DNA of 10,769 bases, taken from the NCBI GenBank assembly GCA_026391995.1, contig JAPLCY010000173.1, positions 1 to 10,769 on the forward strand. Reading direction: 5' to 3'. The notes below the pieces were generated by a model. The model ran no database searches, was not told the DNA's origin, and was given only the letters and a program-made list of their open reading frames with translations. Of the stretch, positions 6,257-9,949 are shown piece by piece (positions within the stretch are counted from its first letter, which is position 1; each line of letters begins with the position of its first letter). The stretch comes from Candidatus Auribacterota bacterium (GTDB taxonomy: Bacteria > Auribacterota > Tritonobacteria > UBA1439). The translations under genes and the position numbers were made by a program.

Positions 6257-7946
6257 ATGAAAGGCTGCGAAATCGTTGTTGACGCGTTGGTCAGGGAAAA
6301 GGTCGAGGTGATGTTCGGCTACCCGGGCGGGTCGGTCATGGACATCTTTGACGTCCTCTACGACGCGCCCATCAACTTCATCCTCACCCGCCACGAACAG
6401 GCCGCCGCGCACGCCGCCGATGGCTACGCCCGCGCGACGGGGAAGGTAGGGGTCTGCCTCGCCACCTCGGGCCCCGGCGCCACCAATCTGGTGACCGGGA
6501 TCGCCACCGCCTACATGGACTCGATCCCGATGGTCGCGCTCACCGGGCAGGTGCCGACCCCGATGATCGGCAACGACGCCTTCCAGGAGGCGGACATCGT
6601 CGGGATCACGCGGCCGATCACCAAGCACAACTTCCTGGTCAACAACGTCAACGAACTCCCGCGCGTCCTGAAGGAGGCGTTCGTCATCGCCGCCACCGGG
6701 CGCCCCGGGCCCGTCCTCGTCGACCTGCCTAAGGATATCATGAAGGCGGAGTGTACCGCGCGCGAGCCGCAACAGGTAGAGCTGCGCGGCTACAAGCCTA
6801 CCTACGAGGGGCACCCGCAGCAGATCAAGCGCGCGGCCGAGGAGATCGCCAAGGCCAGGAAACCGGTCATCTACGCGGGCGGCGGCGCGATCACCTCCGG
6901 CGCCGATAAGGAGCTCATCCAGCTCGCGGTCAAGGCAGGGATCCCCGTCACCACCACGCTCATGGGCCTCGGGTCGTTCCCCGAAACGCACGAGCTCTCG
7001 CTCGGGATGCGAGGCCGACCTGGTCATCGCCATCGGGGCCCGTTTCGACGACCGGGTCACCGGGAAGCTCTCCGCCTTCGCCTCCCAGGCGACAATCATC
7101 CACATCGACATCGACCCCGCCTCGGTGCACAAAAACGTCAAGGTCGACGTCCCGATCGTCGGCGATGTCCGCTGCGTCCTTATCGAACTCAACAAGCTCG
7201 TGAAGCGGTGCGACTCCGCGGCCTGGCTCACGACGATCGCGTCGTGGAAGAAGAAACACCCGCTCACCTACCACACAAAGGACGGGGGCAGGCTGAAGCC
7301 GCAGTTCGTCCTCGAGCAGCTCAGGGCGCTCACCCGGGGCGAGGCGATCATCACCACCGACGTCGGCCAGCACCAGATGTGGGCGGCGCAATATTGCAAG
7401 GTCGTGAAGCCGCGGACGTTTCTCAGCTCCGGCGGACTCGGCACCATGGGCTATGGCTTCCCCGCGGCAATCGGCGCGCAGGCGGCGTTTCCCAAAAAGC
7501 TCGTCGTGGCGATCTCGGGCGACGGCAGCTTCCAGATGAATATCCAGGAGCTGACCACCGCGATCAACTACGACCTTCCTGTCAAGGTCCTCATTTTTAA
7601 CAACGGCTACCTCGGCATGGTCAGGCAGTGGCAGGAGCTCTTCTACAAGGGGCGGTACTCTTCGACCTGCCTGGCGCGCAACAGCAGCTGCCCCAGGATC
7701 TGCGACGGCAAGGGGAAGAAGTGCCCGCCTTTTGTTCCCGACTTCGTCAAGGTCGCGGAGGCGTACGGCGCGATGGGGCTGCGGGTCAGGAAGGATGCCG
7801 AGGTCGTGCCGGCGTTAAAAGAAGCGTTCAAGACGCGGAAGCCCGCCGTGGTCGAGTTTATCGTCGCCCAAGAGGAAAACGTCTTCCCGATGGTCCCCGC
7901 GGGGGCGACGGTGAAAGAGATGATCAAGGGAGTGGAACTGGTGTAG
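6257..7946 (+). pseudogene. ilvB: Acetolactate synthase large subunit, split by an internal deletion and frameshift
   Basis: This gene should encode the thiamine-diphosphate and FAD enzyme that makes acetolactate and acetohydroxybutyrate, the first common step of valine and isoleucine synthesis. The first frame (6257-7009) covers the N-terminal TPP-binding domain ([47 protein letters not shown]) and half of the central domain. After LSLGM the conserved protein resumes one frame over at base 7011 with [18 protein letters not shown] and runs to 7946 through the C-terminal TPP domain ([28 protein letters not shown]). The usual intervening (LGM)HGTxxANxAV segment is missing, so about 32 or 41 bases have been lost. 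The original frame runs on out of phase to 7600; a GTG at 7125 could start a C-terminal fragment. Between FYKGRYSST and VPDFVKVAEAYG there is a four-cysteine insertion. GAGG (6247-6250) precedes the ATG. It is either a true null allele or an assembly or sequencing fault. Confidence 0.92.
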
Positions 7947-7965
7947 CAACTAGTGGTACGCAGCA

Positions 7966-8047
7966 AGTACTAAGGATTAAGCACTTAGTACTTGGTACTT
8001 AGTGCTTAATCCTTAGTACTGATTAGTACTTAGCACTTAATCCTTAG
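7966..8047. repeat. Palindromic heptad repeat between ilvB and ilvN, with a third direct copy
   Basis: Bases 7966-7991 and 7995-8020 form an inverted repeat matching at 25 of 26 positions around a TTG loop. Bases 8026-8047 repeat 7995-8016 directly with two differences. All are 7-base units in register (GTACTAA, GGATTAA, GCACTTA, GTACTTG, GTACTTA, GTGCTTA, ATCCTTA, GTACTGA, then after a three-base phase jump GTACTTA, GCACTTA, ATCCTTA). The left arm resembles the left end of the 8537-8936 element (18 of 21 bases, 7971-7991 against 8537-8557). The right arm resembles its right end (19 of 21, 7995-8015 against 8916-8936). It therefore looks like an empty form of that element. In the transcript it would form a long hairpin just before the ilvN ribosome binding site. 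Confidence 0.88.
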
Positions 8048-8062: not shown

Positions 8063-8536
8063 ATGAAACATACAATAAGCGTTCTGGTCGAGAACAAGTT
8101 CGGGGTGCTGGCCCGCATCGCGGGTCTCTTCAGCGGCCGCGGCTACAACATCGACAGCCTCTCCGTCGCCGAGACGGTGGACCCGACCGTGTCCCGCATG
8201 ACGATCGTCGCCCGCGGAGAGGAGGCGGTCATCGAACAGATCACTAAGCAGCTCAACAAGCTCGTGGATGTGATCAAGGTGCAGGACTACGCCGGGACGG
8301 CGTTCCTGGAGCGGGAGCTCATCCTGGTCAAGGTGCACACCACCTCCCAGACCCGCGCCGAGATCATCCAGATCGTGGATATCTTCCGCGGGAAGATCGT
8401 GGACGTCGACCGGGCCGGCCTGACGGTTGAACTGACCGGCACGGAGGACAAGATCGCGGCCCTCCTCGACCTCCTGAAACCCTTCGGGATCAAGGAGCTC
8501 GTGAGAACGGGCAAGATAGCAATAGCAAGGAAGTAG
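8063..8536 (+). CDS. ilvN: Acetolactate synthase small (regulatory) subunit
   Basis: A 157-residue regulatory subunit that binds the large subunit, raises its activity and confers valine feedback inhibition. The N-terminal ACT domain (about 3-76) begins ISVLVENKFGVLARIAGLFSGRGYNIDSLSVAETVDP, the classic IlvN/IlvH pattern with the effector-binding region NKFGVLARIAGLF. The C-terminal half (about 84-157) carries ERELILVKV and IVDIFRGKIVDV. Length matches the small-subunit family. GGAGG (8052-8056) lies six bases before ATG 8063, directly after the repeat. The intact reading frame contrasts with the broken ilvB just upstream, which argues that acetolactate synthase is still needed, or was until recently. 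The gene ends one base before the inverted-repeat element begins. Confidence 0.96.
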   Translation: MKHTISVLVENKFGVLARIAGLFSGRGYNIDSLSVAETVDPTVSRMTIVARGEEAVIEQITKQLNKLVDVIKVQDYAGTAFLERELILVKVHTTSQTRAEIIQIVDIFRGKIVDVDRAGLTVELTGTEDKIAALLDLLKPFGIKELVRTGKIAIARK

Positions 8537-8560
8537 TAAGGGTTAAGGACTAAGTACTAA
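8537..8560 (+). repeat. Left inverted end of the S23-like cassette
   Basis: This 24-base end starts at the base after the ilvN stop. It matches the reverse complement of 8913-8936 at 21 of 24 positions and includes the heptad-type core AAGTACT. Its last bases supply the in-frame stop (TAA, 8558-8560) that bounds the S23-like frame upstream. Confidence 0.8.
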
Positions 8561-8923
8561 AGCAGTTATGTAAAAACGTTTAGAGATTTAATCGTCTGGG
8601 AAAAGGCGCATAATCTGGTTCTGGAGATCTATACAACTACTAAACAATTCCCTGCAGAGGAAAAGTTTGGCCTTTCCAGCCAGATCCGCAGGTCGGCTGT
8701 CTCGATTCCTGCAAATATTGTCGAAGGGTTCAAACGAAGGAGCAACAAGGAGTTCGCTCGTTTTATAAATATTTCAGATGGCTCACTTGAAGAAACAAAG
8801 TATCATCTGCTGCTTGCTCTCGATCTCGGATATATTAGCCAGGGACAATATGCCAGGCTCCAGGAGTTATGCGACGAGATAGGCAAAATGCTTCATGGTC
8901 TGTACAAGAAGCTTAGTGCTTAG
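8561..8923 (+). pseudogene. Four-helix-bundle protein (S23 / 23S rRNA intervening-sequence protein family), start codon lost
   Basis: The frame is open for 120 codons from 8561 and contains no ATG, GTG or TTG before its main body. The body reads KTFRDLIVWEKAHNLVLEIY (from 8573), then FPAEEKFGLSSQIRRSAVSI, PANIVEGFKRRSNKEFARF, and a C-terminal LDLGYISQGQYARLQELCDE. These are clear marks of the roughly 115-residue S23 four-helix-bundle family, found as ORFs in 23S rRNA intervening sequences and related to the Avd protein of diversity-generating retroelements. An ATG at 8568-8570 stands at the right place but is followed at once by TAA; deleting two bases or adding one would restore MKTFRDL or M(x)KTFRDL. 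The final codons (LSA, stop at 8921-8923) lie in the right inverted repeat. Family function is poorly defined; RNA binding is suspected for relatives. Either recently broken, mis-sequenced, or started at a non-standard codon. Confidence 0.85.
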
Positions 8924-8936
8924 TACTTAATCCTTA
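8913..8936 (-). repeat. Right inverted end of the S23-like cassette
   Basis: A 24-base end, the inverted partner of 8537-8560. It also matches the direct copy at 8023-8046 closely, differing at two positions. It contains the last three sense codons and the stop codon of the S23-like frame and ends 17 bases before the ilvC ATG, close to the ilvC ribosome binding site (8943-8949). Confidence 0.8.
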
Positions 8937-8953: not shown

Positions 8954-9949
8954 ATGACAAAGATGTACTATGACAAGGACGCGAACCCGCGTGTCCTGAG
9001 CGGGAAGACTATCGCCATTCTCGGCTACGGCAGCCAGGGACACGCCCAGGCGCAAAACCTGCGCGACAGCGGCGTCAAGGTCATCGTCGCGGAGCTCGAG
9101 GGGACCGACAACTACACACATGCGGTGAAGGACGGCTTCAAGCCGGTCACCGCCGCCGAGGCGGCGAAGAAGGCCGACATCATCCACTTCCTGCTCCCCG
9201 ACGAGGTGCAGGCGAAGGTGTACCAGGACGACGTGAAACCGGCCCTCAAGAAGGGCATGGCCCTCGCCTTCTCGCACGGATTCAACATCCACTTCGGCCG
9301 GATCGTCCCGCCAAAGAACGTGGATGTGTACATGATCGCCCCGAAGGGCCCCGGCCATCTCGTCCGGCGCGTCTTCACGGAGGGGAAGGGCGTCCCCTGC
9401 CTCCTCGCCGTCCATCAGGACGCGACCGGCAAGGCCAGGCAGATCGCCCTCGCCCACGCGCGCGGCATCGGCGGAACCCGGGCCGGCGTCATCGAAACGA
9501 CGTTCGGGGAGGAAACGGAGACCGACCTCTTCGGCGAGCAGTGCGTCCTCTGCGGCGGCCTGACGGAGCTCGTCCGGGCGGGCTTTGACACCCTCGTCGA
9601 GGCGGGATACCAGCCCGAGATCGCCTACTTCGAGTGCCTGCACGAGATGAAGCTCATCGTGGACCTCATGTACGAGAACGGCATCCAGAACATGCGTTAC
9701 TCCATCAGCGACACCGCAGAGTACGGCGATGTGACCAGGGGCCCGAGGATCATCACCGCCGAGACCCGGGCCGAGATGAAGCGGATCCTCGGGGAGATCA
9801 GGAGCGGCGCGTTCGCACGCGAATGGATTCTCGAGAACATGGCCGGCCGCCCCGTCTACAAGGCGCTCGTACGCCAGGGGAAGGAGCACCTCATCGAAAA
9901 GGTCGGGGCCAAGCTCCGCGGCATGATGTCCTGGATAGAAAAAAGGTAA
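8954..9949 (+). CDS. ilvC: Ketol-acid reductoisomerase (class I), possibly NADH-preferring
   Basis: A 331-residue enzyme that isomerises and reduces acetolactate or acetohydroxybutyrate to the dihydroxy acids used by IlvD. The N-terminal Rossmann domain has [17 protein letters not shown] (24-40). The all-helical C-terminal domain supplies the Mg-binding and catalytic residues D191, E195, E227, E231 and S252; H108 (SHGFN) and K131 (APKGPGH) are also in place. Length fits the short class I form. The loop after the second strand (A46-Y54, AELEGTDNY) lacks the Arg and Ser residues that usually contact the NADPH 2'-phosphate and carries E47, E49 and D52, which suggests NADH use. GAGGGGG (8943-8949) lies four bases before ATG 8954. 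It follows the S23-like cassette and leads to leuA. Confidence 0.96.

Follow-up and report, generated by a model that had tools for sequence, protein, structure and literature searches.

An S23 gene enclosed by inverted arrays of 7-bp repeats in the ilvN-ilvC spacer of a Candidatus Auribacterota bacterium

The 417-base gap between ilvN and ilvC was analysed in a 10,769-nucleotide stretch of DNA (hereafter the window; contig JAPLCY010000173.1 of assembly GCA_026391995.1) from a Candidatus Auribacterota bacterium and was found to hold a single open frame enclosed by two arms of degenerate 7-bp repeats (see Table 1 for details). The limits given in a preliminary description of the locus were reproduced: the block starts directly after the ilvN stop codon (TAG, 8534-8536) and leaves 17 bases before the ATG of ilvC at 8954. 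Its 24-base ends are inverted copies of each other that agree at 21 of 24 positions, as had been described; in 300 random 120 x 120 comparisons within the window, with windows overlapping repeats retained, the median best match was 15/24 and the maximum 21. A 17-base core of the left arm was also recovered in a separate repeat comparison of the window, and local alignment of the arms runs a few bases into the end of ilvN. The assignment of the sole frame to the S23 family held (PF05635, E 9.2e-45; TIGR02436, E 1.9e-42), its TAA stop codon (8921-8923) sits within the right end, and the gene-less copy of the same ends that had been reported upstream is real and is itself a palindrome.

Table 1. 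Features of the S23 element and its surroundings in the window
Feature	Position	Strand	Remarks
Left arm	8537..8560	+	Degenerate 7-bp repeats AAGGGTT AAGGACT AAGTACT; first base is the next after the ilvN stop
S23 / 23S-rRNA-IVS protein open frame	8561..8923	+	120 aa between stops; PF05635 and TIGR02436 matches
Right arm	8913..8936	+	TTAGTGC TTAGTAC TTAATCC TTA; S23 stop codon inside
Gene-less palindrome	about 7965..8046	.	Same heptads plus further arm; ilvB-ilvN spacer
ilvN	8063..8536	+	Host gene before element; from ORF list
ilvC	8954..9949	+	Host gene after element; from ORF list

Elsewhere in the window, ilvB is split across two frames (ORFs 6257-7600 and 7125-7946) by an apparent frameshift at about 7000-7020, possibly an assembly error. 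A palindromic stretch with a 7-bp word read by eye as GTACATA/GTACATC lies at 409-500, between ORFs 19-396 and 464-1255; it was not reported by the array scan.

The S23 frame has no ATG, GTG or TTG at the position where the gene starts in the sister genome G001, which carries a 68% identical relative at the same place; the ATG at the G001-equivalent start is followed directly by TAA in the window, while G001 reads through. The only protein record (P0001) is a 110-residue product with ATC as its first codon, and the missing canonical start may reflect decay of the gene, an error of the assembly or use of an unusual start codon. Inside the ends, matches were limited to models of S23 and Avd type (among the latter bAvd, PF22296, and the Avd model, whose match falls below its cut-off), and no recognised catalytic transposase domain was found there. 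The relatives with solved structures are 2gsc and 2rld, with five chains per entry. In an alignment of 57 S23 proteins from heptad-flanked elements, Q41, R44, S48, N52, E55 and E78 (window numbering; positions 34, 37, 41, 45, 48 and 71 of the aligned domain) are kept in 52 to 57 of the sequences, and we know of no nuclease, recombinase or other catalytic site with this make-up. The second S23 gene of the genome (L002, G000:C213:5637-5954) contains an in-frame TGA and has a period-8 array downstream (GATAGCTT) with a poor inverted partner.

Matches to PF05635 were found at 197 places in 32 of 59 genomes, the source genome included. Ninety-one of these were taken, roughly best first (all of the weaker places were left out, as were partial G051 matches and two fragments at contig edges, from G020 and G022), along with 42 named S23 loci from the genome collection. 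The 200 bases on each side of the domain were compared as inverted repeats, with a score of 14 or more counted as positive; the flank was too short at 2 of the 91 and 2 of the 42, giving 89 and 40 testable loci. Inverted flanks were observed at 67 of the 89 loci from the source and related genomes and at 24 of the 40 named loci, which span Omnitrophota, Elusimicrobia, Bacillota, WOR-3, Planctomycetota, Chloroflexi, Nitrospirae, Bacteroidota, Berkelbacteria and others; none were seen at this score at 22 and 16 loci, respectively. Among controls, score 14 was reached by 1 of 234 pseudo-domains within the same loci, by 20 of all 521 ORFs (3 with a period-7 arm) and, most strictly, by 17 of 171 genes whose intergenic flanks measure 60 bp or more on each side (2 with a period-7 arm). 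Compared to the last of these, the excess was statistically significant in both sets (Fisher test; P =8e-27 and P =8e-11).

The flanks are predominantly heptameric. Inverted flanks combined with a period-7 left arm were present at 43 of the 89 and 19 of the 40 loci, and arms with clear periodicity had period 7 in 84 of 111 and 37 of 43 cases, the remainder being mostly 8. Identity between lagged positions in the flanks peaked at 7, 14, 21 and 28, with no such peaks 600-900 bp away. The median aligned arm length was 33 bases and the 7-bp word varied by locus. Inverted flanks, mostly of period 7, were also carried by 14 of 15 S23 genes on cyanobacterial plasmids (taken from 50 S23-matching records, giving priority to the best matches and passing over near-duplicates; two of the loci, L337 and L338, are related) and, using 260-base flanks, by the two S23 genes that a single scan of viral contigs revealed. 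One of the plasmid elements has the word AGGAGTC. Regular flanking of S23 frames by heptad ends had been set beforehand as the decisive observation, and it was made at frequencies far above the controls; the existence of the cassette is confirmed, and it belongs to a widespread kind. Three of the S23 elements on cyanobacterial plasmids lie in CRISPR operons, namely L341, L344 (cas6/cas4) and L339 (cas10/Cmr3-family). A different arrangement was seen in G051, where S23-like genes stand head to head with a non-heptad hairpin between them (L061, 950-1664); about seven such pairs exist by coordinates, of which one was inspected.

Similarity of the S23 proteins was compared with similarity of their heptads over 67 of the 129 tested loci, those with period-7 arms at score 14 or more (2161 between-genome pairs). 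The two were correlated (Mantel r 0.379; mean 0.001 and maximum 0.138 in 2000 permutations). Proteins close to that of the window but from other phyla share almost its word (AAGGATT, AAGTAGT; L154, L193, L152), and exceptions occur, since L058/L097 and L112 combine similar S23 proteins with different heptads.

It had been proposed to search the genome for both ends, and gene-less copies with a matching heptad were indeed found elsewhere. The pattern TTAGTACTTANTNCTTA, with up to two mismatches, gave 57 (overlapping) matches in the source genome, and the reversed pattern gave 0. Only one of the two S23 places in this genome, that of the window, is among the matches; of 11 sites inspected, 4 were hairpins with a score of at least 14 and the rest were single arms or weaker. 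Hairpins were also surveyed in 777,850 bases from G001, G006 and G009; the stretches were picked according to contig number and yielded no S23 gene. These contained 27 inverted pairs of period-7 arrays (7, 1 and 19, respectively), compared to 0-1 pairs for each of the periods 5, 6 and 8-12; 26 of the 27 are separated by 10-111 bp, and the pairs account for 54 of 202 period-7 arrays, with 148 unpaired. For 20 of the 27 hairpins the best-matching arm was that of an S23 element in their own genome (label shuffling, mean 2.1 and maximum 15 in 2000), although these 20 fall on five S23 elements and 19 of the 27 pairs derive from one genome.

Two genomes with a single detected S23 gene gave a further comparison. 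The word of the G046 gene returned 163 (overlapping) matches in its own genome and 0-2 in 11 others, and that of the G052 gene 29 (overlapping) and 0-1, respectively; the cross-genome comparison was used for G052 because its reversed pattern resembles itself and, with 27 matches, is uninformative. All nine extra copies inspected in the two genomes were single arms, not hairpins. With respect to position, 12 of the 27 surveyed hairpins start no more than 15 bases from the ORF on their left. Twenty-two have a neighbour on both sides, and in 19 of these the two ORFs are co-directional, compared to 200 of 289 intergenic gaps (raw counts).

The arm-gene-arm unit occurs in many lineages and has dispersed as a unit within three genomes. 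In G038 three copies are 82-86% identical (the right side of one being a contig end), in G006 two copies are 85% identical and in G031 two are 79% identical; in each case the common part is the arm-ORF-arm segment only. The S23 genes of these multi-copy elements are under purifying selection, with dN of 0.047-0.073 and dS of 0.61-1.14 in five within-genome pairs (dN/dS about 0.05-0.12).

A match to ilvC was found in 41 of 44 genomes searched, with weak matches only in G014 and G029, and ilvN adjoins ilvC across a readable spacer in 24 of 30 fetched loci of relatives. The spacer holds S23 elements in 4 of the 24: those of the source genome (G000) and G001 have related S23 proteins and related words, and those of G003 and G042 differ from them in both protein and word. 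Gene-less heptad hairpins occupy it in three (G009, G010, G017), palindromes of period about 10 in two (G006, G039) and something else in two (G019, G036), and in 13 it is bare (36-76 bp). The tandem-unit palindromes of period 10 (L128 in G006 and L144 in G039; AATTCGTG.. and AATCTGCG..) perhaps represent a parallel family with another cognate gene.

Other sites show similar turnover. At L037, the spacer of G043 is occupied by an S23 element that fills the space from the stop codon of one gene to the start region of the next, as in the window; the corresponding spacer in G034 is 40 bp long and lacks S23, and that in G038 is filled by other palindromes. At L096 an S23 element is present in G038 and an S23 fragment between other heptads in G034, and the L103 spacer has no S23 in G034. 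No target duplication was seen in the flank comparisons of L037, L103 and L096; between G043 and G034 the allele without S23, the one usable 'empty' site, has diverged and is not a clean ancestral join, and the spacer appears to be replaced instead of cleanly split. Two outcomes had been named in advance as contrary to mobility, ends scattered at random with no link to S23 and a gene that all relatives carry at one locus with ends that do not move with it. Neither was observed, since gene and ends disperse together, matching gene-less copies exist and the site in relatives is empty or otherwise filled.

The block in the window is probably a mobile element of intervening-sequence (IVS) type, REPIN-like and dispersed, in which an S23 gene lies between inverted arrays of element-specific 7-bp repeats that its product would recognise. 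The earlier suggestion of a small mobile element or trans-mobilised unit is thereby supported by the flank association, the dispersal, the gene-less copies and the site turnover, from which mobility itself is inferred. We envisage that a pentameric S23 protein, a relative of Avd, would bind single-stranded nucleic acid and recognise there the period-7 array that belongs to its own family, with perhaps one heptad per subunit. TRAP wraps RNA and offers an analogy for an S23 ring contacting one word per subunit. Such a ring is attractive because each solved relative has five chains and the Xanthomonas S23 protein is a homopentamer according to the accessible text of PMC4990558. The paired arms would form a hairpin that host enzymes could copy or join at new sites, and the same hairpin route might serve the full element and, in trans, the gene-less hairpins, in a manner resembling the supposed action of RAYTs on REPINs. 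In RNA, the paired arms could allow excision of the element by RNase III, as happens with rRNA IVSs.

An RNA-level system without active DNA mobility, in which S23 would bind heptad arrays of the mRNA and, together with RNase III acting on the paired arms, process or protect operon transcripts, with the gene-less hairpins as regulatory targets, is unlikely but accounts for several observations. The arms of the window element pair in an RNA fold (z -3.44), RNase III cuts the rRNA IVS stem (PMC4990558, accessible text), and S23 elements with both neighbours known lie behind a co-directional gene in 65 of 72 cases, compared to 287 of 385 ordinary genes (P =0.003; two further orientation tests were borderline, P =0.036 and P =0.075). 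Such a system sits poorly with the turnover of positions among relatives and with one spacer housing different S23 elements, and the heptads are specific to the element and not fixed per target gene.

It is less probable still that S23 is a passenger and that a different enzyme, for instance a resident Y1/RAYT transposase, moves the heptad hairpins, a reading suggested by Y1 counts that parallel S23 counts by eye over the 59 genomes. Of 43 Y1 genes examined, 42 were testable and 34 of these have inverted ends at score 14 or more, but the ends are their own and different, with period 7 in 1 of 42 (0.6 self-identity). These distinct ends argue against Y1/RAYT as movers of the heptad hairpins, and this candidate was rejected; they also indicate that the pattern of a gene with its cognate palindrome is present in a known system. 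In addition, G020 (92% complete) and G034 (81%) have armed S23 elements and no detected Y1, the heptad follows the S23 protein, and S23 is under purifying selection. The Y1/RAYT-like ends are often of type GGGGTCAAACC or GGGGACACTCTT (L259, L262-L266, L269-L271, L275-L283 and others).

It is very improbable that S23 works, like Avd, with a reverse transcriptase in trans: the bAvd and Avd models do match the window protein (Avd below its cut-off), but RVT_1 had no match in S23-bearing genomes of 92-96% completeness, among them G003, G006, G012 and G021, and a reverse-transcriptase partner was rejected as a general rule because these nearly complete genomes lack RVT_1. Finally, slippage making heptad arrays everywhere, with S23 nearby by coincidence, is scarcely credible, for although certain bacterial genomes contain an excess of heptameric repeats (PMC4692102, accessible text), this reading is refuted by the control comparisons, the S23 association and the same-genome heptad match.

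Having favoured an S23-encoding mobile element for the window, we consider it quite possible, as a more tentative generalisation, that S23 proteins define a class of minimal mobile elements lacking both a canonical transposase and a reverse transcriptase, in which each S23 lineage recognises its own 7-bp word and multiplies both S23-bearing and gene-less arrays. The class would be spread over phyla, plasmids and phages, and it would include, as special cases, rRNA IVSs and the heptamers known from Xanthomonas and cyanobacteria. The package of S23 gene and heptads points to a widespread, largely overlooked kind of mobile element. S23 or 'four helix bundle' proteins are common and of solved structure yet have no known function, and rRNA intervening sequences are unexplained. 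With the rule that S23 lies between inverted arrays of a 7-bp word specific to it, a role that can be put to the test is assigned to the family. The rule could also account for a large class of intergenic repeats in bacteria whose source is not known, and it supplies naturally matched proteins and repeats with which binding and mobility can be studied.

Among known systems the closest is the 23S rRNA IVS. In the accessible text of PMC4990558, that of Coxiella burnetii is described as an S23 ORF with a 28-bp terminal inverted repeat stem and tandem GACAGAT heptamers before the start codon, in which the first repeat is the site where RNase III cleaves; a mobile element is mentioned there as an idea, and the heptamers are not generalised. 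The likeness extends to size (about 400-450 nt), the S23 ORF, stem-forming terminal inverted repeats and heptamers (in Coxiella beside the S23 start). Unlike an rRNA IVS, the window element lies in a protein-coding operon (ilvN/ilvC) and not in a 23S rRNA helix, its heptads are element-specific and build both arms, and there are dispersed copies and gene-less derivatives. A scan of 20 of the 42 named loci for an rRNA location of S23 gave no Rfam match. The earlier remark that the element is perhaps undescribed must therefore be divided: the architecture was partly described before, as the Coxiella IVS has the same parts, while the window element lies outside rRNA. Beyond PMC4990558, no link of S23 genes in general to inverted heptad arrays was found in the literature searched, which took in few preprints or subscription papers. 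If S23-dependent mobility is true, the class as a whole would be new and its parts already known from the rRNA IVS.

The element differs from an insertion sequence or MITE in having no transposase with a recognised catalytic domain inside its ends. It shares with Avd of diversity-generating retroelements a related four-helix family (bAvd PF22296 match), and a resemblance of PF05635 to Avd is noted in the accessible part of PMC10053308; unlike Avd, it misses the equivalog cut-off and there is no RVT_1 in its own genome (84% complete). REPINs and RAYTs, as defined in the accessible text of PMC3116915, likewise comprise short intergenic hairpins of inverted repeat doublets, a resident gene and matching non-autonomous copies. 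Dispersed hairpins matching the flanks of a resident gene were found here too (the 20 of 27 above), but G046 and G052 have single arms. Unlike the RAYT system as described there, the resident protein is S23 (PF05635) and not a Y1 tyrosine transposase, and the repeats are 7-bp tandem arrays whose sequence changes with each element.

Heptamers without a source gene have been reported in Xanthomonas, where, according to the accessible text of PMC4692102, two genomes carry 186 and 183 GGGAATC arrays with 70 and 75 convergent pairs, the downstream repeats lie mostly within 50 bp of a stop codon, and similar repeats, GGGGA(C/T)T, occur in Nostoc. That text names no source gene and describes the repeats as generally unassociated with transposable elements or insertion sequences, and neither S23 nor IVS occurs as a term in the paper. 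In the 509-kb Xanthomonas sacchari sequence NZ_CP010410.1, 33 places match the GGGAATC array (L351 being one stretch) and no S23 match is listed. Unlike the Xanthomonas and Nostoc heptamers as described in that accessible text, the arrays of the window are tied to an S23 gene. The S23 protein 2gsc derives from one of the two Xanthomonas species with GGGAATC arrays, which gives the sharp prediction that GGGAATC arrays flank its gene.
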